DNA of 44,400 nucleotides from a virus: positions 1 through 44,400 of IMG/VR virus record IMGVR_UViG_3300017605_000171; one strand, 5' to 3'. The position numbers and the translations under genes are program-made. Shown one piece after another: positions 4,079 to 40,550 of the stretch. The notes below the pieces were generated by a model. It saw only the letters and a list, made by a program, of their open reading frames with translations, was not told where the DNA came from and searched no databases. Each line of letters begins with the position of its first letter. The first letter of the stretch is position 1.

Positions 4079-5293
4079 ATGCCTGGAGTAACTGGTGTAT
4101 TCAATACGGGCCAAATCACGCAAGACCTAGCAAAGAAGTCATTTGCGGCGATGATTACCCGCCTCATGCCAAACGGCACAGCACCGCTGTTTGGTCTCAC
4201 TGCACTGCTGAAGGAAGAAACTGCCTATCAGTTTGAGCATGGTTATTTCTCCAAGACGATGATTTTTCCGTCGATGGCAGTTTCGGCGGCTGGTCAGCTG
4301 ATTGGTGATACCACGTTCACGGTGGTTTCTACTGCCAACGTGCTCGCTGGGATGATTATGCGGGTAGATAGCACGAATGAAAACGTGCTAGTTACCAGCG
4401 TGCTCAGTTCTACGCAAGTGGCAGTTCAGCGTGCAGTTGGAACGGTTGCTGCTGTTGCAATCGCCGGTAACATCAACCTGTGGATGGTTGGTAATGCGTT
4501 TGAGGAAGCTTCTCTGCGCCCGCAGTCACTGGTTATCGTGCCTGCGCGTATCACCAACTATACGCAGATTTTCCGCAATACCTGGGCAATCAGCAAAACC
4601 AATGCTGCGACGACTCTTATCGCTGGCAGTGGTAACGTAGCTGAGAGCAGACAGGATTGCGCTGCGTTCCATGCTGCGGATATTGAGAAGGCGCTGTTCT
4701 TCGGGCAGAAGTTCCTCGGCTCTCGGAACGGTCAACCCTTCCACACGATGGATGGTCTCATTAGCATCGTGACCCAAAACGCTGCGGGTAACATTACTAC
4801 GTTGGGTGCTACTACTAACTGGACTCAGTTAGAAGCTGCACTTGACCCGGCGTTCAACCAAATGACAGACCCGAAGGTTCCAAACATGCGGGTACTGTTC
4901 TGTGGTGGCCCGGCTCGCCGTGTTATCCACAACATCTGCCGCCTGAATAGCACCTACTACATTCAGGGAACAGAAACTACCTGGGGTCTGCAATTCGATA
5001 CCATCAAAACCCCGCGTGGCACGTTCAATATCGTGGAACATCCGCTGTTCAATGCTTTTGGTGCTACCAGCACTTGGGCAAAGATGGCGATTGGTGTTGA
5101 CCTTGCTACTTTCAACCTTGCTTACTTGCAAGGGCGCAAGACGGAGAACCAAGAGTTTAACATGAGTGGCCAACCAACTGACAACGGCGTGGATGCCTGC
5201 GGTGGAACTCTCACCACGGAACCAACCTGCCTTGTTAAAAACCCGGCTGCGAATGTGATTCTCTACAACTTCACTGCTGGCGCTGTAGGCTAA
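4079..5293 (+). CDS. Major capsid protein
   Basis: A 404-aa protein predicted to have the HK97 fold and build the icosahedral shell. It lies after the scaffold, with an AGGAG site 9 bases before the start and a strong terminator straight after the stop, the usual setting of the most highly expressed virion gene. An N-terminal helix region (about 10-60) is followed by a beta-rich insertion (about 75-135, with TTFTVVSTANVLAGM) and an Arg/Asn-rich core (IFRNTWAISKTNAAT, about 161-175). The layout resembles the SU10/DUF5309 type of capsid protein, which I offer as a likely family without a search. Codons are more C-ending than in neighbours, fitting high expression. Confidence 0.87.
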   Translation: MPGVTGVFNTGQITQDLAKKSFAAMITRLMPNGTAPLFGLTALLKEETAYQFEHGYFSKTMIFPSMAVSAAGQLIGDTTFTVVSTANVLAGMIMRVDSTNENVLVTSVLSSTQVAVQRAVGTVAAVAIAGNINLWMVGNAFEEASLRPQSLVIVPARITNYTQIFRNTWAISKTNAATTLIAGSGNVAESRQDCAAFHAADIEKALFFGQKFLGSRNGQPFHTMDGLISIVTQNAAGNITTLGATTNWTQLEAALDPAFNQMTDPKVPNMRVLFCGGPARRVIHNICRLNSTYYIQGTETTWGLQFDTIKTPRGTFNIVEHPLFNAFGATSTWAKMAIGVDLATFNLAYLQGRKTENQEFNMSGQPTDNGVDACGGTLTTEPTCLVKNPAANVILYNFTAGAVG

Positions 5294-15383: not shown

Positions 15384-17616
15384 AGCACCAACTACAGTTC
15401 CAGTATCTGCTGCTCTGGACTGGTTAGATAAGAACGCTGAAACCTCAGGCGTTGCTCCTTCTCTTGCCAAGCAAATCTTTCTTGCTGAGAACCTTAATGA
15501 GACTAAGGATGGCAGGATAATTGTCCCTAACAGCATTGCTGCTGGTCAAACTAGTCCCAAAGATGCTTACGGTCTAATGCAAGTTAGACCCAGCACTCAT
15601 GCTGCTCTTATTAAGCAAGGATATTTGCCAGAAGGTCACACGATGGGTGACTGGCAAACGCAGCTTGAAGCAGGACTTGCTGCCATATCTGCAATGCAGA
15701 AAGAGCAGAAAACTACTGACCCTACTGTTATTGGTGCTGCCTACAATGGTGGTTTTAAATCAGGTAGGTTAGCTAGTGAAGGTAAGCATGACCAACTTCC
15801 CGCAGAAACTCAGAAGTATGGTTTCCGCATGGCTGCTGCCAGAGACTTCCTAGGCATCAATAACACAGCAACTGGCGCGCCCTCTGCTTCTGTTAGTCCT
15901 CCAACCGGACTTCCTACTTCTAATCTTCCCGTTCGACCTGGTACTTCTGATACTATTGGTCGTGGTATTGAAGCAATGCAGCAAGTTCTTACTGATGGCA
16001 GTAAGCTATTTGATGAGTTGGTTAAGACTGTCACTGACAGCTCTACTGCTGCGGCTTCTGCTAAGACCAGAGAAGCAGATTCACTTCGCCAAGCGGGAGA
16101 AGCTAGGGCGCGTGCTGATGTAACTACGGGTGTTGTAGAATCAATGATTCTTAAGATGAAAGAGCGCACCGCCAACATCTTGGGAGTCAACACTAACAAT
16201 ACCAATAACGTAGTTGCGGCTGAAATCAGTAAGCAGGATAGTCTTGAAGCTCAGATGAATCCGCTGAAGGCTGATATTGACAGGCGCATGAGTGTTGGTT
16301 TGTTTGACAATCCTCTTCAATGGTTAATTAATCAAACTGTGCTACCGGGTAAAGTTGCACAGTATAACGCGCAAGTCCAGGACTACAATAATTCTGCGAC
16401 TAAGATTAACTATCGGCAGACTACTGCTGATGCTCAGAACAAAGTCGATGTTGCTGGAACTGCTGACTTAGTTGCTCAGCAGTATGTGGACATTTCCAAA
16501 GCTAATGCTGCTCAGTTCAATGCTAAGGCAGAAACTGCGCTGGCTGAAGCCTCTGGCGCGCGAGCCGCAGCTACACTCTCCATTGCTAGACTTGCAGAGC
16601 AGCAACAAGACAACAAACGCCAGTCTATTCAGTATGCTCTTACATTAGCTGAGCATCAAGAACGGAGTCAGCTTAAAGAAAAAGACAGAAAACAATTAGA
16701 AGAAACTGATGCAACAGTTAAGACTATTGGTGAAGCTATTGGTGCTCCCAATATGTCGTCGATGGCACTTAAAAATGCCACCAAAGAAGTTAAAGATATG
16801 TGGGAGCGCGCCATCGTTACTAAATCAGCGGGCGATTCTTTCACTGAAGCTTTTCTTTTCATTAAAAATCAAGGTAACTTAAATAACTTGCGTAAAGGTG
16901 CTCGTGCTGAGTTTGCTCAGTATCAGCAAGATTTTCAGGACACCTTTAGTAAGCGTGTCCCTGAACTGTATACTAACTGGAGCACTATGTTTCCTGCTTC
17001 TGGTGGTAAAGTTCCTACAGAAAAACAAGTACAGGCTCAGGCGCTAACAGAGATAGAAAACAGTATTAAGCACGAAGTTAATACTAATATGCTTAATGCT
17101 CATGCGTATAATCCTTATTTAATTAATCACTCCAGCACTATTAAACAATGGAGTGGTGATGTTAATAATCCAGTGTATCAGTTTGTAAAAACTCAGCTGG
17201 AGAAAGGCACAAAGATAAATGACACCATCCTTCTTAAGGCTATCAGCCAACAAGTAAGTTTGGGTCAAGTTGCTCCTAGAGACGCTGCGATAGCGGTTGC
17301 TGACTACTACTCCACAGCTGTAGCTCGCAATAATGCTCAGCGCGATTTTAACTTTATGGGGATGCCTGCTCAGGAAACTTATCGTGTAGTGCTGCCCGGC
17401 TCTAAGGTAGCAGCTAATTTAACTAATATTGCAAGCATAGACAATCTGTTCACTTCCATGAAAGTGAAATCAGCGCGCTTCCCACCAATTCAAAGTTTTG
17501 CTACTACTCCTGAGGGAGCAGTTACTGGTGCCCAGATGATTCCGCGTCAAATTCCTCAGCGCAAACCTGTCAGCAGCGATACGGTGTTTGCAGTGCCAGC
17601 TCCGGAGAATAACTAA
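15376..17616 (+). CDS. Internal virion protein with N-terminal lytic transglycosylase domain
   Basis: A 746-aa protein likely to be ejected with the DNA and to open peptidoglycan locally. Residues 30-150 match the SLT fold: IFLAENLNETK with Glu38 or Glu42 as catalytic acid, AYGLMQV at 64-70 and AAYNGG at 121-126. The remaining about 590 residues are helical, Ala/Gln/Lys-rich, and probably build the internal core. The fusion resembles T7 gp16 in logic, although here the enzyme sits on the mid-sized protein. It overlaps the previous gene by 8 bases and the next by one base. Confidence 0.82.
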   Translation: MAEAPTTVPVSAALDWLDKNAETSGVAPSLAKQIFLAENLNETKDGRIIVPNSIAAGQTSPKDAYGLMQVRPSTHAALIKQGYLPEGHTMGDWQTQLEAGLAAISAMQKEQKTTDPTVIGAAYNGGFKSGRLASEGKHDQLPAETQKYGFRMAAARDFLGINNTATGAPSASVSPPTGLPTSNLPVRPGTSDTIGRGIEAMQQVLTDGSKLFDELVKTVTDSSTAAASAKTREADSLRQAGEARARADVTTGVVESMILKMKERTANILGVNTNNTNNVVAAEISKQDSLEAQMNPLKADIDRRMSVGLFDNPLQWLINQTVLPGKVAQYNAQVQDYNNSATKINYRQTTADAQNKVDVAGTADLVAQQYVDISKANAAQFNAKAETALAEASGARAAATLSIARLAEQQQDNKRQSIQYALTLAEHQERSQLKEKDRKQLEETDATVKTIGEAIGAPNMSSMALKNATKEVKDMWERAIVTKSAGDSFTEAFLFIKNQGNLNNLRKGARAEFAQYQQDFQDTFSKRVPELYTNWSTMFPASGGKVPTEKQVQAQALTEIENSIKHEVNTNMLNAHAYNPYLINHSSTIKQWSGDVNNPVYQFVKTQLEKGTKINDTILLKAISQQVSLGQVAPRDAAIAVADYYSTAVARNNAQRDFNFMGMPAQETYRVVLPGSKVAANLTNIASIDNLFTSMKVKSARFPPIQSFATTPEGAVTGAQMIPRQIPQRKPVSSDTVFAVPAPENN

Positions 17617-20600
17617 TGGAAAATGATTTTAGCAGCAGTTCTATCATAGCAGCAGCAGACACTGCTAATATGCAGGCTGGTGCTGATGAGTCTCTTCTGG
17701 AGCGCGCTAGTACTTTTACAGGAGCTGCTATACTTAGTGGTATTTATAGCATTTACAATACTGCTGCTGGAGCCGCGAATTATCTGGGAGCAGATATTGA
17801 GAAAGCAGATGTTGCTAAAACTCTTTCAGAGAATGACGCCAATCAAGGTGAGTATTATCAAAGAAATAAAGAAGCCATTGATGCTACTGGCTTTATGCTT
17901 ACCTCTCTTATTCCTGGCGGTCTTGCACTTAAAGGTTTACAGCTTGCAAAAGCTGGAACTCTTATTGGCCCCTACGGACGCGCGCTAGGTTACTTTAGTG
18001 ATAGGCGCACGGCTGCGCTTACTGCTGCACTTGACGAACTAGGAACTAGTGGCGGCACTATCTTCAACCAGATTAGCAGAAACAAGCTTGCGGCTATGGG
18101 CTGGGAAACAGCAGACAACGTGCTACAAGTAGCAGCATTTGAGACTGCTGTTTCTGCTACTATGAAGCAGTCGCCACTTCTGGAAAAAGATGATTTGGCA
18201 GATATTGGCTGGAATATTGCTAAAACTGCTGCCATTTTTGGGCCTATCGGCGGTGCCATTAGTTCTCTAGCTATTCACAATGTGTATAAAAATGCTAGCA
18301 GACTCATTGAGCCGGAGATGCGGAAGTATGACCTTCTTCATGTGCTCAACGGAGTTAACGATATTCCTGATGGCAGTAAAGCTTTCCTACTTCTTAAGAG
18401 TGCGTTGGAACGTCCCGGCGAAGGATTCAATATACCATTCCAGCATCCTTACTTAACTGAGGGAAAGACTTACGAACTTCCTACCAGTGCTGCAATGCTT
18501 CGTGCGCGTGACACTGGAACTAAGCATGCGTGGACAGAACTTGATAACCTCACCAAACTTATGGCAGGGGGTGATGAGGAAGTTGCTGGTGCTTTCTCCC
18601 ACTATATCTATCGCACAGTTGGAGAGATGCAACAAGCTGGCCGCGACATTCCTGCTATCACGGGATTTCTTGAGGACAACTTACTTAACGTCAGTAAGAT
18701 TTCCAGAATATCTGACAAAGCAGATAAAGGCATGGGAGATTTATTCTACCTTGCTAAAGAAATTCCGAAAGAAACTTATTCACAAATTAAGACTGTGGAT
18801 GATTTCATCAATGCTATTCGTAGTCGCGCCCCATTCGAGAAAAATGCTGGCAGTCAGCCCTATGAGATTCTAGGAAACTTTGATGATGTTAAGATTGCTT
18901 CGATTGGGGATACTTCCGATGCTGTTTCTCGTTTCCCGCGCTATGCAACTCCTGCCGATGCTTATGCTGATGGCATTGACGTAGTAGTTATGCGTGGTGG
19001 AACTCTTAGAATTAATCCTAAGTCTGAGCGAATCGTTGACCACTCTGACCCGCTGCTGCGCCCGCGCCAGTATTTCAATATGCCGTCTAGGAGTTTCTCC
19101 TACACCGCGCAACCCACCATTGCAGATATGGGAACGGTAGCAGTTGTTGGTGCTAAGGATACAGTTATTGCTGGAACTCAGCCAGCAAGAGTAATGAAGA
19201 TGTTTGATGATTTTGAATTGAGGAAGATGACTACGGTAGATGCTAGTGCGCGTTATGCTTGGCTTGCTCATAAGACAGGTGATAACTACACACTGGCCGC
19301 GCTTCCTCACCGTATTTCTGCTACTGACTTTCCTATGCTGGAACGTATTATGCAGGAAGGTGCAGAGAAGTGGAAAGACATTGAGCTTGTTTCCATTGAT
19401 GGCAGCTCCAGGAAAGTTGGAGACATTGCTAACTTTGGAGAGTTTCTCACCAGCCAGAAGTTAGGAACACTGAAAAATCATTTTGCTGAAGGGCCGGAGG
19501 ATTTACTATCTCTGGGAGTTAAACTAAATGTGGATTCATCGTGGGTGCAGAAAGCTATTGAGCATAACTTTGTATTTACTGACGACTTGATTGCTGGTGC
19601 TACTGTTCCTCTGCATCGTTCTCTTTATCCTGCTAACGTAGAAGTTCGCTGGGATTTCAGTAAGACCGTGAAAGCAGCAAAAGGACTCGTACAAGACCAA
19701 CCTACCCTAGTAGGAACTAGTGGGCGCACTCTTCCTGCTGCTGGTAAGGCTGATTTTGTTCAGGCACTTCCTGATGGTGCTGGTAATGCTATCTATGGAG
19801 AACTAGGAACTACTTATGCGATTAAAATTGGTAAACAGCAAGCTGAAGATGCGGCTGTTTCTGTGCTTGGAAAGTGGTATCACCTTCTGCCTGATTTGGC
19901 GGAAGATGCAACTAAAGGTGCGGATTCACGTGGTGCAGGGCCAACATTGGCAGGTGCTTCCAATGCTGACTACGGCGATTCTCTGCGCTCAACTTTCCAG
20001 TTTGCGGGTAACATCACAAACCAGGCAATTAAGGAGGCAGCAAATCTACAGTTGGCTCGCTTCCAACCCATAATGATTCGTATTGCAGATGACAAGGAAG
20101 CTGCTGCGGAACTGGGCATCCTTACTACTCGTCTGCGTAGGTCGTCAGAGAAGTTTGTAATTGACCCTAACGATAGCACCAGACTTGTTAACAAAAAAAC
20201 TTTGATGGTTAATGAGGATGGAACTACATCAGTCTCTACTGCTAAGATTGATGAGCTTAAGAAAGCCGGTGTTGATACTGTCTATCAGATGAAGAACAGT
20301 AACACAGTTGACTTCATTAATACTTACAGAGAAGCTAATGCTCAGTGGGTGGAGAAGAGGAAAGTATTGCTCTCAGCGCGCGGCTGGAACATTAACTGGG
20401 ATGCGAATGTAATTCACGTTCCTCCCGTAGATACTGGTCGTTATCCCTTCTTCGCCTTTGTGCGAAAGAGAGAAGGTTTCTTAGGAGCTAGCAGTGAAGT
20501 AAGTATGATTACTGCTAGAACCGATGCTGAGTTGCGGAAACTTACTGATGGCGTTCCGCGTGGAGAGTATGATGTTCTCTTCAAAGAAAATACCAAAGCT

Positions 20601-22850
20601 TATCACAAAGCTAAGAGCACTTACGACTACCAACTTTCTATGAAGGAACCAGCAGTTAATAGTGACCTTCAGAAAGCTGGTGTGCTTGGTGATTTCTTCC
20701 CTGAAACTGCCTCGGATGTTGTGCTTGAAGATTATCTTCGTCATATCCAACAGCAAGAATCCAGAGTAGTGCGGCTAGGTGTTGAGACCAAATACGCACA
20801 GCAATTTGCAGAACTTCGTAATCTTGGACGCCAGTTCGAGGAAATTTCTACTTCCAAGATGCAGGCTGATGTTAAGAAATTCAAGAGTCAGATTGAAAAT
20901 CCTTTCGAGGAATATACCAAGTTAGCTCTTGACATTAGCAAGCGTAGCGAATACACCCTGCTTCACGATGCTAATGAATTTGCTGAGTCTCTTGGCAGAA
21001 CTGCCTACCGAATGTTTGAGCTTAATAAAGACAAAGCTCTTAGCAGGATGGTGTCTTGGGAAGAAGCTAATAAGATTTCTGAGGGCTTTGGTATCAAAGG
21101 CCCCTACAATGCTAATAACATTGAGCAGTATATTGCTGCTAATTCTCCTGCCGAACGAAGCCTTACAAAAGAGTTTGTAGGCAAGGCTAATACGATGATG
21201 GTTAATTTTGCTCTCCGTTTGGATATGGTGCAAAGTTTAATCAACACTATTAGCACTCCTATTCTGCTATCCACGGAAATGTCTAGCATCAGAACGCTCG
21301 TTGCTAATGACTCTGCACTTGCCGGGAAGTTAGCAGAACTTCGTAGCGTGCAAATTCCTGGCATGGACGCGGCAGTTCCTTCTACTCTCAAGCTTCTTGG
21401 GCGCGCTATCCAAAACTTCTTCGGAGATAACAAAGAGCAGCTCCTTAGTCGTTACAAGGATATTAGAGTCATCAATGAAACCATGAGTAAGTATCATGAG
21501 ATGATTGATGCCTTCTCTCTCAAGCCGTGGCAGGGAGTAAACAAGTATAAAGAAATGGGAGATAAAGGAATTGAGATTGGTGCTAAGTTCACTGGCAATG
21601 CTTGGAGTGAGGAATTTACTCGCTTCGTATCTGCCAATGTAATGCACCAACTCACTGACCCAATAGTTGAAGCAGGTAAGATGAGCTTGAAGGAGCAAAA
21701 TGCTTATATCAGTATCTTCGTTAACAGAGTGCAAGGAAATTACCTCGCATCTCAAAGACCTATTGCTTTCCAAGGAGTGCTTGGCTCGGCTGTCAGTCTC
21801 TTTCAAACTTACCAGTTTAATCTCCTCCAACAGTTATTCCGTCACGTCGCAACAGGAGATAACAAAACTGTCTTCACTATGATGGGTATGCAGGGAGCCT
21901 TATATGGTGCTAACGGTATTCCGTTCTTTGAGGCTGTTAATAATTATCTCATTGGTCAAAGTAGCCTCAACCCGACTCACAAAGACCTCTACTCTACAAC
22001 CGCACTGGCTAGTAAAGCAGTTACTGGTAGCACTAGCATGGGTGAATGGCTTATGTATGGAACCGCGTCAGCCTTCCCCTTCTGGAGTAGCAACGCTCCT
22101 GCTCTTTATACTCGTGGCGATATTAACCCTCGTCACATCAGTGTTCTGCCTATATCTCCTGCTGATTGGGTTGGAGTTGATGGCAGTATTAGGATGGTGA
22201 GTAATCTTATTGACTTCGGAAAGAAAGCTGTGCAAGGTGCTGACATGAGCACTTCACTACTGGAAGCTCTGGAGCACAATGGAATTAATCGGCCATTGGC
22301 AGGAATGGCGCAGGTTGTTGCAGGCAGGAGCACTACAAGCAAAGGTAGTCTCATCAGTGCTAACAACGACTTCCTTAGCCTTGCGACTCTATCACGGATT
22401 GCTGGTGCAAAACCGATGGATGAGAGTCTCGCGCTCAATACCTACTTCCGCATTAACGGGTATCAAGCTGCTGACCAGCAACGCTTAGAAGCTTTGGGAG
22501 AAACAGTTAAGACAAAGTTGAAGAATAACAAGATGCCTACATCAGAGGAGATGCAAGCTTTTCAACTTGAGTATGTTAAGTCTGGTGGCAGGATTGAAAA
22601 CTACTCCGCTGCCCTCCAACGCTGGAGTAAAGATGCTAATGTCAGCATTGTTAACAAGCTGATGCAGGAGCATCAAACTAGCTACAGCAAAAACATGCTT
22701 AGCAATATGGGTGGGCGGCAACTTCCAGATTACAGGAATACTGGAACTGCTCAACCTGTAATTCCAGCAGCTACTGATGAAAATGAGGATGTTGACCAAA
22801 CAGAGCAGTATCGACGCTCTAGCAATCGCTACGGCGGTGTGCGCGGTTAA
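17616..22850 (+). CDS. Giant internal/ejection protein (1744 aa)
   Basis: The largest gene, 1744 aa, last of the rightward arm. It starts at 17616 behind GGAG. Long helical stretches dominate; hydrophobic Gly/Ala segments near residues 95-110 and 205-220 (AKTAAIFGPIGGAISSLAI) could interact with membranes during ejection. No enzymatic motif was recognised. Size, location after a transglycosylase-bearing virion protein and composition fit the largest ejected protein of podoviruses. The stop codon overlaps the stop of the convergent ATPase gene. Confidence 0.72.
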   Translation: MENDFSSSSIIAAADTANMQAGADESLLERASTFTGAAILSGIYSIYNTAAGAANYLGADIEKADVAKTLSENDANQGEYYQRNKEAIDATGFMLTSLIPGGLALKGLQLAKAGTLIGPYGRALGYFSDRRTAALTAALDELGTSGGTIFNQISRNKLAAMGWETADNVLQVAAFETAVSATMKQSPLLEKDDLADIGWNIAKTAAIFGPIGGAISSLAIHNVYKNASRLIEPEMRKYDLLHVLNGVNDIPDGSKAFLLLKSALERPGEGFNIPFQHPYLTEGKTYELPTSAAMLRARDTGTKHAWTELDNLTKLMAGGDEEVAGAFSHYIYRTVGEMQQAGRDIPAITGFLEDNLLNVSKISRISDKADKGMGDLFYLAKEIPKETYSQIKTVDDFINAIRSRAPFEKNAGSQPYEILGNFDDVKIASIGDTSDAVSRFPRYATPADAYADGIDVVVMRGGTLRINPKSERIVDHSDPLLRPRQYFNMPSRSFSYTAQPTIADMGTVAVVGAKDTVIAGTQPARVMKMFDDFELRKMTTVDASARYAWLAHKTGDNYTLAALPHRISATDFPMLERIMQEGAEKWKDIELVSIDGSSRKVGDIANFGEFLTSQKLGTLKNHFAEGPEDLLSLGVKLNVDSSWVQKAIEHNFVFTDDLIAGATVPLHRSLYPANVEVRWDFSKTVKAAKGLVQDQPTLVGTSGRTLPAAGKADFVQALPDGAGNAIYGELGTTYAIKIGKQQAEDAAVSVLGKWYHLLPDLAEDATKGADSRGAGPTLAGASNADYGDSLRSTFQFAGNITNQAIKEAANLQLARFQPIMIRIADDKEAAAELGILTTRLRRSSEKFVIDPNDSTRLVNKKTLMVNEDGTTSVSTAKIDELKKAGVDTVYQMKNSNTVDFINTYREANAQWVEKRKVLLSARGWNINWDANVIHVPPVDTGRYPFFAFVRKREGFLGASSEVSMITARTDAELRKLTDGVPRGEYDVLFKENTKAYHKAKSTYDYQLSMKEPAVNSDLQKAGVLGDFFPETASDVVLEDYLRHIQQQESRVVRLGVETKYAQQFAELRNLGRQFEEISTSKMQADVKKFKSQIENPFEEYTKLALDISKRSEYTLLHDANEFAESLGRTAYRMFELNKDKALSRMVSWEEANKISEGFGIKGPYNANNIEQYIAANSPAERSLTKEFVGKANTMMVNFALRLDMVQSLINTISTPILLSTEMSSIRTLVANDSALAGKLAELRSVQIPGMDAAVPSTLKLLGRAIQNFFGDNKEQLLSRYKDIRVINETMSKYHEMIDAFSLKPWQGVNKYKEMGDKGIEIGAKFTGNAWSEEFTRFVSANVMHQLTDPIVEAGKMSLKEQNAYISIFVNRVQGNYLASQRPIAFQGVLGSAVSLFQTYQFNLLQQLFRHVATGDNKTVFTMMGMQGALYGANGIPFFEAVNNYLIGQSSLNPTHKDLYSTTALASKAVTGSTSMGEWLMYGTASAFPFWSSNAPALYTRGDINPRHISVLPISPADWVGVDGSIRMVSNLIDFGKKAVQGADMSTSLLEALEHNGINRPLAGMAQVVAGRSTTSKGSLISANNDFLSLATLSRIAGAKPMDESLALNTYFRINGYQAADQQRLEALGETVKTKLKNNKMPTSEEMQAFQLEYVKSGGRIENYSAALQRWSKDANVSIVNKLMQEHQTSYSKNMLSNMGGRQLPDYRNTGTAQPVIPAATDENEDVDQTEQYRRSSNRYGGVRG

Positions 22851-36981: not shown

Positions 36982-39255
36982 CTAGCACTCCTCCGAAGTA
37001 TCTGCTACGGTTGAGAATTCTTCCTTTAACAATTGCATAACATCCTTGAAACCATGCGCCCAGCTTGGAAGTTCGCCATCTGCAACAAACACATTAGGCT
37101 TTGCTCCCATTAATTGCATTGCCATATTCCACGCAGTGCCATGCGCGCGGTCTTTGCTGTAGCTTGCAGCTATCAAGTGGCAGCACTCATGCACAAGAGT
37201 ATCACCTAGCATCTGCTCCCGAACATCCTCATTTCTGCTAGCGAGAATACTCCACAGAGCATTAAGCTTGATTAGCTGCTCGTCAAATACAGCTTGTCCT
37301 ACTATCCTGCTTTTCTGTAGCTTGTAGCTGATTGTTGGAATGACACCAATCTTGTCACCCCAAATTATCTTTGCACGGTTCCAAATCTTTTCAAGAGCAT
37401 CTTCGACCTGATGTTTAAAAGTATCAGGCACTAACTCATGAAGTTTAACCAGCGGTGGCGGTGGCGTTTCCTGCACCGGAAGGGCAGGGAGGCGCGTATC
37501 ATCTTCAGCGCCTTTATATCTGCTTTCAACTGGCTTACCTTCAGGTAAATCATTACCCTTTGCCATAAGCTTATCAAATTCATCCTTTTTTCCTTTAAAC
37601 CATTCTGCTTTCTCAGCAAGTGTATCACCCTTGATGCGTGGCGACCTTGCTGCTTTGGTCAAGGTGCCATCCTTACCATTCCTGTCAGGCTCTACAATCA
37701 TGTAGAGTTCCTCACGTGCTCTAGTGATAGCAGTGTAGAGAAGCTCACGGCTCCACATAGTAACATGGCTTTGGTGAGTAAGGAAAAATACCCGTTTCCA
37801 TTCCGAGCCTTGCGCCTTGTGAACGGTGAGCGCGTAGGCAAATTGCATGGCGTTAATATCACCAGCACTGCCAACACTCTCCACAGCTTCCGAATCTAGC
37901 AGCTTAACTGTAATGATATGGGAAGCTTCCTGTTTCCTGTCCTCCTCGGCTTCATCACCTTTGAGAACAAAGGAATCTAAGAAAGCGTCAGTATCAAAAT
38001 CGTCTGCTGGGTCACTTTCTGCTGTTGGTTTTTGCTTGTAGCTTCCCCAACGGTCAAGATGTTCTGACGGTGGACGAGCGCGTTTCTTGCCGTAGTATCT
38101 GGCATTGCGTTCAATGCGAGTAATGATTGCATCCTCTCTTCCAACCAGCACTCTATCACCGACTGCGTAGTAATGACTCTGGAAGCCAGCAATCACTTCC
38201 ACTACAACTGCTTTACGCTTGTCACCTAGTGCCTGAGCAATAACCCTGTTAAATTCATTAGTGCCAAACGCAAGGTTAGCAGTCTTTTCCTGCGGGCAGA
38301 GGATAATATCCTCTTCTTCGTCGTAGTCACCTTTGGTAACAAGGTCACGAAGAAAGGCGCTGGCAGCATGTGTGCCATCGAAGTCAGATAGTGGTTTCTT
38401 CCACGGGTGTATAGTTACTTTACCTTGCGTGGTTTCCATCACTATTTTCTGTGTGACTGGTATCTTCTCTCCATTCTTAACCTTGTGTGCAAGGTCAATG
38501 ATAGGAGATAGTGCAGCTTGCCGGTAGATATGGGTAAGTTCGACGGTTGGCAATTCCAAAAGTTTGAAGCCCAGAATTGCTTGCCCGTAAACAGGCGGCA
38601 ACTGATGCAAGTCACCAACGAAAATAAACATCACGTTAGCGCCATTGCTAACTAGTGCGTCTAGGATTTGCTTGAAGAGCTGCACACTTGGCATCGAAGC
38701 TTCGTCGATTACTATTACTGTCAGTGTGCCCGGTAGTTTCCTACCACGATTGCGAGCTGGCTCGAAACGCATTGTGATGCGGTTCTTACCTTCCTCCTCA
38801 TCGTAGACTTCATAAAACTGAGGCTCGAATTCCAACAGCTTATGAATTGTTATACAGTGCGGTTTCAACTCAGTAGAAACGACTTTCTTGATGTTTCTAA
38901 CGGCTCTGCGAGTGAAGGAAGTAAGAACAATTCCGGGCCTGCCACGCTCAAGATACTTGGTAGATAGGTCGATAGGCTGCACTTTGTTGCCTGCCACCAA
39001 CCTATTGATTACTTCCTTAAGCGTGGAAGTCTTGCCAGTGCCGGCAGCACCAATGAGGCAGAAGCTTTTGCCATTCATTGCTAGGTCGATACCTTGCTGC
39101 TGTTCTTTGTTCCAAGTCCATTCACCAGCACTGGCAGTATCTGGCAACTTAACAAAGGGAGGAGCAACAGGAAGTGCAGCAGTTTCCTTTGCTGCTAACT
39201 TGGCGCGCGCCTCAGCAATCAACTCTTGCAGTCGTGTTTGCGTTGGAGTAGTCAT
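36982..39255 (-). CDS. SF1 (RecD/Dda-like) helicase fused to SprT-type zinc protease
   Basis: A 757-aa two-domain protein; start at 39255 behind AGGAG. Residues 45-560 form a superfamily 1 helicase: GAAGTGKTST (69-78), VIVIDEAS (Walker B, DE), FVGDLHQLPPVYG (motif III), VHKAQGSEW and ELLYTAITRAREELY near the end, as in RecD2/Dda DNA helicases. Residues 640-757 carry a metalloprotease motif, VHECCHLIAAS with His689, Glu690 and His693, then His705 in AHGTAW, the H-E-x-x-H...H pattern of SprT/Spartan proteases that cut proteins crosslinked to DNA. The inferred job is to unwind past and remove protein roadblocks during replication. Confidence 0.87.
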   Translation of the reverse strand: MTTPTQTRLQELIAEARAKLAAKETAALPVAPPFVKLPDTASAGEWTWNKEQQQGIDLAMNGKSFCLIGAAGTGKTSTLKEVINRLVAGNKVQPIDLSTKYLERGRPGIVLTSFTRRAVRNIKKVVSTELKPHCITIHKLLEFEPQFYEVYDEEEGKNRITMRFEPARNRGRKLPGTLTVIVIDEASMPSVQLFKQILDALVSNGANVMFIFVGDLHQLPPVYGQAILGFKLLELPTVELTHIYRQAALSPIIDLAHKVKNGEKIPVTQKIVMETTQGKVTIHPWKKPLSDFDGTHAASAFLRDLVTKGDYDEEEDIILCPQEKTANLAFGTNEFNRVIAQALGDKRKAVVVEVIAGFQSHYYAVGDRVLVGREDAIITRIERNARYYGKKRARPPSEHLDRWGSYKQKPTAESDPADDFDTDAFLDSFVLKGDEAEEDRKQEASHIITVKLLDSEAVESVGSAGDINAMQFAYALTVHKAQGSEWKRVFFLTHQSHVTMWSRELLYTAITRAREELYMIVEPDRNGKDGTLTKAARSPRIKGDTLAEKAEWFKGKKDEFDKLMAKGNDLPEGKPVESRYKGAEDDTRLPALPVQETPPPPLVKLHELVPDTFKHQVEDALEKIWNRAKIIWGDKIGVIPTISYKLQKSRIVGQAVFDEQLIKLNALWSILASRNEDVREQMLGDTLVHECCHLIAASYSKDRAHGTAWNMAMQLMGAKPNVFVADGELPSWAHGFKDVMQLLKEEFSTVADTSEEC

Positions 39256-39256
39256 T

Positions 39257-40231
39257 TCACAGCTCCTCAGCCAGATTGCTAGCAGTCTTGGAAGCAGCCT
39301 TGTTAGCAAGCTTCCATTTTGCTTCTGCTACGTAGAAAGCAGCCTTACTAGTAAAATCCTTCGCCAGCGGTGCGGGGATGCCCACTAGCGCCGCATCCTG
39401 CTCAGGAATGATTATCTCAAAAGTATCTTGATAAACATTGAGCCAGCGTTTCAACTCTGCTAGTCTCTTTGACACTTCGTAACTAATGCTGTTGCCAGTT
39501 TCGCAGTGCTCCAGAAACAGAGCTTCAAGGTCATCAATCTCTGTAAGACTCCAATTCTGGATGTTCTTTTCCGCTGCAAAGAATAAATCCTTTGCATCGT
39601 TCAGCTCGCTGTTCAGGTGATTTGGCATCTGAGCATCGACCCAGCTCCACAATCTACGCAAGCTAACATCTTCATACATATTCTTACGGATGCTCCTCAT
39701 TGCAAGAGCAGCAGCTTTTTGTTTCGCTTCACGCTGAGTAACTCTTACAGTGCTTTCGTAGTCTGCTATGCAATCATTGCAGACCTTTAACCACGGTGCA
39801 ATCTGTTCAAAGCCTGATTCTTTCCAGATATGCAACCGAGGAAAGTGCAGCCGTTGGCTGTTAATGCTCAGTTTGTAATCCACCAGCACAATTACTTCAG
39901 CAATGAAAGTATCTGCTACGTGCGGCGGTGGCAGGCATGGCAAGTCTTGCACCAGAAAATCCTCTGAGTGCAGCAATGCTAGCATAGCTAGCTGTTTCTG
40001 CTGCATTGGCCACGGCTTCTTGCCTTCCTTCTCCAGCATGGCATTAGACTTAGCCTTGTGGAGAAGTGCAGAAGTAGAGAGGCTGAAGATAGGATGAAGC
40101 AGAGTTTCCTGCTTCCAGTTTTTGATGTATGGAGAGGTTCCATCCGTTCCGTACACTGCGACGTTTGCTACAAATTCACCGAGCCTAAGCCCGGAAAACT
40201 TGCAGAACAGCGGGATGTTATGGTTTGCCAT
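39257..40231 (-). CDS. Unknown protein, second gene of the leftward operon
   Basis: A 324-aa protein started at 40231, 1 base after the upstream stop; longer in-frame readings overlap that gene. The N-terminal part has PLFCKFSGLRLGEF and HPIFSLSTSALL, the centre is helical and basic with several Trp, and the C-terminus is Lys/Ala-rich. No motif for a primase, nuclease or ATPase is visible. Its place directly before the helicase-protease and near the candidate origin suggests a replication-associated role. Confidence 0.68.
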   Translation of the reverse strand: MANHNIPLFCKFSGLRLGEFVANVAVYGTDGTSPYIKNWKQETLLHPIFSLSTSALLHKAKSNAMLEKEGKKPWPMQQKQLAMLALLHSEDFLVQDLPCLPPPHVADTFIAEVIVLVDYKLSINSQRLHFPRLHIWKESGFEQIAPWLKVCNDCIADYESTVRVTQREAKQKAAALAMRSIRKNMYEDVSLRRLWSWVDAQMPNHLNSELNDAKDLFFAAEKNIQNWSLTEIDDLEALFLEHCETGNSISYEVSKRLAELKRWLNVYQDTFEIIIPEQDAALVGIPAPLAKDFTSKAAFYVAEAKWKLANKAASKTASNLAEEL

Positions 40232-40232
40232 G

Positions 40233-40550
40233 TTAGCTGCGTCCGGTGGTAGCAAACAGCCTGTGAGTCTCAGCACCGAATGAGTCCAGCACTGAAATGT
40301 AGCAGCGATTGGCGACTCTGTTAGAATCGAAGCCACCAATGTAGAAAGTGCCATCGTCCTTAACAGGCAGACCTGTTTCTTCGTTGATAGGAAGCTCCAC
40401 TTTCTCGAATCGCTGCTCCAGTTTCATTTGCACAGGAGCTGCGACTGCTACTTCGGAACCGCTGGGGATTGTTATTTCTGAACCATCGGATGTTATCATG
40501 TAGAAACGCCCGCTGTAATCTTGCTTGATACCGCACATTCTCGGTTGCAT
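40233..40550 (-). CDS. First protein of the leftward operon
   Basis: A 105-aa protein starting at 40550 behind AGGAG; upstream in-frame starts fall in the promoter and repeat region. It is beta-rich with GRFYMITSDGSEITIPSG and TFYIGGFDSNRV. As the gene nearest the promoter it should be expressed earliest. Function unknown. Confidence 0.7.
   Translation of the reverse strand: MQPRMCGIKQDYSGRFYMITSDGSEITIPSGSEVAVAAPVQMKLEQRFEKVELPINEETGLPVKDDGTFYIGGFDSNRVANRCYISVLDSFGAETHRLFATTGRS

Follow-up and report, generated by a model that had tools for sequence, protein, structure and literature searches.

The window, i.e., the whole stretch of DNA analysed, is a 44,400-base virus record that carries a gene for an SU10-type capsid protein at 4079-5293 and, according to Pfam and PHROGs matches, genes for a family A DNA polymerase, a DUF3987/primase protein, a Sak4-like protein and a PD-(D/E)XK nuclease. 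Judged from these capsid, polymerase, DUF3987/primase, Sak4-like and nuclease genes, the window is a tailed phage. A 1744-aa ORF (17616-22850, plus strand), for which no Pfam match is found at E 0.01, closes the plus-strand gene run. The gene of interest (Table 1) had been placed at 36982-39255 by a first-pass annotation made from the sequence; these positions are correct, with the addition that the gene lies on the minus strand and is read from 39255 to 36982. Its longest ORF would begin with a TTG at 39309, and GAGGAG, a good ribosome-binding site, is found 5' of the ATG. Because the stop of the upstream gene lies 1 base before the start of the fusion gene and the next ATG is close behind its stop, the fusion gene lies within a run of co-directional genes. 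Promoter and terminator scans gave results at chance level only. The gene directly upstream (39257-40354, minus strand) encodes a 365-aa protein without Pfam or PHROG match, whose homologues are found in 29 fetched loci (the window and duplicate contigs counted) and lie immediately upstream of the helicase in 10 of them; it is a helicase-linked protein with no function assigned by Pfam or PHROGs.

Table 1. Coordinates of the helicase-SprT fusion gene, its parts and the free-standing SprT-like genes of related contigs.
Feature	Position	Strand	Basis or remark
Helicase-SprT fusion gene	36982..39255	minus	ATG 39255-39253, stop TAG 36984-36982, 757 aa
SF1B RecD2/Dda-type helicase region, ~residues 47-560	37576..39117	minus	Pfam, PHROGs, fold
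Walker A GAAGTGKT, residues 69-76	39028..39051	minus	GTGKT at 72-76
Disordered linker, residues 571-599	37459..37545	minus	pLDDT <50 in full-length model
SprT-like metalloprotease domain, ~residues 605-735	37051..37443	minus	PF10263, AF2 model, fold matches
HECCH, residues 689-693, two zinc His and catalytic Glu (predicted)	37177..37191	minus	H689, E690, H693 invariant
His705, predicted third zinc ligand	37141..37143	minus	+16 from first His, 7/7 fused proteins
Free-standing SprT-like zincins	L004:563-979, L017:1105-1518, L029:2650-3123, L049:271-690, L077:641-1066, L079:3191-3739		upstream of unfused helicase
Free-standing SprT like the tail of L053	L106:10880-11281, L110:9981-10421, L112:10322-10756, L113:10533-10964, L102:9760-10152		

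The helicase region matches the Pfam families AAA_19, AAA_30 and UvrD_C_2 and the Dda-like helicase family phrog_325 of PHROGs (1.7e-63). Among solved folds, RecD2 (3gpl, E 6.6e-23) is the nearest, followed by RecD, DSH9 and T4 Dda (3upu, E 4.1e-16). The Walker A motif, VIVIDEAS (IDEA at 183-186) and VHKAQGSEW (KAQGSE at 480-485), from which the first-pass annotation had recognized a complete SF1 helicase, are found exactly as it stated, and the Walker A residues G69, A71, G72, G74, K75 and T76 are, like the core motif residues, invariant in the 39 helicases compared. By motifs and fold the protein is a member of the SF1B helicases of the RecD2/Dda type; the RecD2 equivalog TIGR01448 of NCBIfam scored 187.9 bits against its cut-off of 500 and aligned over profile positions 312-690 only. 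As a member of the SF1B class, the phage helicase is expected to travel in the 5'-3' direction. Helicase architecture and motifs are common to the window protein and the SF1B helicases T4 Dda and RecD2, whereas only the window protein bears a fused protease. Likewise, the Dda-like helicases of PaP2/119X, Tiera and Aeromonas P5, which are 34-38% identical to the window protein over 68-74% of its length, stop after the helicase and are without a protease. PADLOC matches are restricted to the helicase part of the fusion.

The full-length model (pLDDT 84.5, pTM 0.67) consists of two folded blocks with the disordered linker between them. In the C-terminal block, HECCH and a third His within AHG at 704-706 are present exactly as had been claimed, and a second AHG is found in the tail at 733-735. 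The Pfam SprT-like family (PF10263) spans residues 650-719 with an E-value of 3.7e-7 and 30.4 bits (33.5 bits for the tail alone) against a cut-off of 25.6, and it matches six of the six fused tails scanned. The HExxH motif is not fortuitous, because PF10263 scores over its cut-off and every fused tail scanned matches; together with conservation and the AlphaFold model, these results rule out a chance occurrence. The AlphaFold model of the protease domain, made from the C-terminal 168 residues together with six homologues, has a pLDDT of 84.9 and a pTM of 0.80. When compared with viral models by Foldseek, its best named matches include SprT proteins (VAP7, Aeh1 and others) with a probability of 1.00, the VAP7 protein being the top structural match of the protease domain (E 2.3e-5). 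In the PDB, Foldseek finds minigluzincins and SPRTN 6mdx (probability 0.85), with high probabilities and weak E-values (best 0.019); a phmmer search of the tail against the PDB returned a single match that is judged to be due to chance. Structure prediction of the C-terminal region, which the first-pass annotation had named beforehand as a test, yields a predicted zinc-protease fold whose nearest relatives are minigluzincins, SPRTN and phage SprT proteins.

The window domain shares the SprT metalloprotease fold, the HExxH motif and the third His with SPRTN (PDB 6mdx). SPRTN has, however, a zinc-binding domain, whereas the window protein has none and its protease is fused to a helicase. The zinc-binding subdomain of SPRTN binds single-stranded DNA and confers dependence on single-stranded DNA. 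The tail of the window protein contains only the cysteines Cys691 and Cys692, both inside HECCH, and Cys757, and no zinc-ribbon family of Pfam matches the fusion protein. The absence of this zinc-binding, DNA-targeting domain rules out a Spartan orthologue, and because the SPRTN-style subdomain is missing, any DNA coupling of the protease must come from the helicase. Of the earlier assignment to a SprT/Spartan type, the SprT-type zinc protease stands by score, fold and ligands, while kinship to Spartan is no nearer than to SprT generally. The nearest solved folds, the archaeal minigluzincins (jannalysin/selecase and abylysin; 4jix, 4qhf and 4jiu), are stand-alone peptidases, and a DNA motor is found only in the window protein. 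The free-standing SprT proteins of Vibrio phage VAP7, Aeromonas phage Aeh1 and Acinetobacter phage Loki (gp24) have the same fold and are separate proteins without a helicase. That the window protein joins a complete SF1 helicase and a SprT-type zinc protease in one chain is confirmed.

A search of viral contigs with the helicase family retrieved 80 loci, five of which (L008, L009, L011, L053 and L057) carry the SprT tail, and a search of viral contigs with the tail added L109 and second contigs matching L008 and L011. Together with the window, L008, L009, L011, L053, L057 and L109 represent seven fused lineages on separate contigs, and the identical architecture on eight other contigs rules out an assembly chimera. 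As the first-pass annotation had required of a genuine protease, the HExxH motif and the third His at +16 are invariant in the seven fused lineages; in a full-length alignment of six of these proteins, H689, E690, H693, H705 and W709 are invariant at domain identities down to ~25%. The dN/dS ratio between L053 and L057 is 0.069 for the SprT core, similar to the 0.094 of the helicase, and a value of ~0.07 indicates purifying selection on the protease. The window and L008 share 50% identity in the tail and 74% in the helicase, so that the tail has changed more quickly. In ~79 other helicase proteins, those of PaP2, Tiera and Aeromonas P5 among them, the chain stops soon after the helicase or continues into an unrelated tail, and the unfused helicase of L010 is 61% identical, with no SprT match in its 49-kb record. 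Because these related phages, L010 included, keep the helicase alone, the helicase of this phage group does not need the protease in order to function. The unfused helicases of L060 (2303-4480), L070 (3532-5808) and L058 (5500-7740) have unrelated C-terminal tails of 57-105 aa with Lys/Ala-rich ends, which lack HExxH and are ruled out as SprT domains. The SprT alignment found no relatives in 84,980 bacterial and archaeal genomes, in a scan that hinges on one short peptide pattern and would miss diverged proteins. A scan run with the alignment of the fused proteins did recover helicases, but the fused-tail profile matched no ORF in the 80 loci kept. Among cultured phages, searches with three tails brought up no fusion to a helicase; the neighbourhoods examined, which belong to a minority of the hits, contain free-standing SprT-like genes or unannotated ORFs.

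A separate SprT-like ORF of ~140-210 aa precedes the unfused helicase by a few kilobases in Tiera (Tiera_053), L017, L029, L049, L077 and L079, and L018 contains a second type of separate SprT-like ORF. No such upstream ORF is found in any of the fused records searched, several of which are partial. The small SprT-like zincins follow the pattern HExxH, HG/HN and then CP..HE..YKPR.A..AGI, and most score at or below the Pfam cut-off. On the contigs with a free-standing SprT similar to the L053 tail, a second HExxH protein with an HHD motif lies ~3 kb from the SprT gene.

Phylogenetic analysis of the helicases places the fused proteins at two separate positions: the window, L008 and L009 with the unfused L010, and L011, L053, L057 and L109 with the unfused L060 and L070. 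This tree requires at least three changes between the fused and unfused states and rules out a fusion limited to one helicase clade; holding all fused proteins as one clade is rejected (AU p 7e-34). In the SprT tree, L011 groups with the window set, apart from L053, L057 and L109, and a single clade of the SprT domains of L011, L053, L057 and L109 is also rejected (AU p 0.0185), a value to be read with caution given the long branches and the short domain. Because the fused forms do not make up one clade among the helicases, fusion or domain exchange probably occurred more than once. On these trees, the simplest reading is at least two separate fusions, or one fusion followed by domain exchange, while a single old gain with many losses would be less parsimonious.

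T4 Dda is a 5'-3' SF1B helicase that strips proteins from DNA (PMC11551737). In a reconstituted animal system, FANCJ loads on single-stranded DNA, moves along it until it meets a crosslinked protein and unfolds that protein, which allows SPRTN to cut; the assay requires FANCJ (PMC12279946). SPRTN works there with FANCJ as a separate helicase, whereas the window protein has both parts in one chain. By analogy, we lean, if only slightly, towards a protein in which a 5'-3' helicase meets and unfolds proteins stuck on DNA and the protease digests them, so that one chain would fill the roles of FANCJ and SPRTN. The SF1B helicase would load on single-stranded phage DNA, move 5' to 3' and push into a crosslinked or very tightly bound protein, such as a trapped host enzyme, RNA polymerase or a DNA-bound defence protein, and partly unfold it. 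The SprT domain, held on its flexible linker of ~30 residues, would then cut the exposed polypeptide via the zinc site formed by His689, Glu690, His693 and His705, and replication or recombination could continue. In this mechanism the helicase would replace the SPRTN zinc-binding domain in DNA targeting; that domain, the one part missing from the phage chain, would then be superfluous. We infer the proteolytic activity, its substrates and the coupling of the two activities from the related systems, and architecture and precedent argue for a role in the clearing or repair of DNA-protein blocks. The domain scores, folds, invariant sites, dN/dS, repeated joining and separate upstream SprT-like ORFs all count for clearance. 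Against it count a SprT part that is not basic (core pI ~7), the missing zinc ribbon, the many relatives without a protease and the more rapid change of the tail, as might equally be expected if its target were one specific protein that itself changes.

The SprT domain could indeed be a host-takeover protease for a specific host protein, e.g., RecBCD, a nucleoid protein or a defence protein, with the helicase merely delivering it to DNA. Such a role would suit the patchy distribution of the domain and its faster divergence; SprT-like peptidases of jumbo phages, where free-standing SprT-like proteins are known, have been proposed to target host proteins because they occur in few genomes and differ in copy number (PMC7824862), and a SprT-like ORF of a large Vibrio phage adjoins host-takeover genes. 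However, the domain turns up repeatedly at one position of one type of helicase, and SprT-like genes elsewhere sit in replication modules, as that of phage Loki does (PMC5313236). Because of this recurrence and this location, a DNA-linked role is indicated, and we consider the host-takeover role unlikely, though a serious contender.

The long disordered linker and the ability of SPRTN to cleave itself in trans (PMC7782752) would accord with a protease that serves as a switch, cutting either the fusion itself or proteins of phage replication or recombination, for timed helicase release or turnover of replisome partners; most relatives do without the domain, however, and we regard such a switch as improbable. 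A SprT relic without catalytic activity, kept for protein or DNA binding only, would agree with the dispensability of the domain in relatives, but it is very hard to reconcile with the four invariant active-site residues and the low dN/dS, and we give this reading hardly any credence. Clearance of stuck proteins is favoured over a specific host target, processing of the fusion or its partners and a dead domain, because Dda removes proteins from DNA and the phage chain has the same two parts as FANCJ with SPRTN. A one-chain clearing machine is also probable because these two activities appear to have been joined repeatedly in separate branches of the viruses. The broader proposal, that phages have more than once evolved a single-chain machine to unfold and digest DNA-bound or crosslinked proteins, and so have a pathway of their own for repairing DNA-protein crosslinks or clearing away defence proteins, is offered tentatively, as one that may well prove either right or wrong.

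Both domains are familiar. The helicase-SprT chain is absent from the cultured phage records and the open-licence literature searched, although an earlier mention elsewhere is possible. The single-chain pairing and its recurrence appear to be previously unknown. If the proposed function is true, this phage protein would show that the pairing of a helicase with a protease is a recurrent solution, here in one chain. It would also offer a compact system, with no ubiquitin and a single polypeptide, for studying how unfolding is coupled to cleavage, and would suggest a function for the widespread, poorly characterised SprT-like proteins in phages and bacteria.
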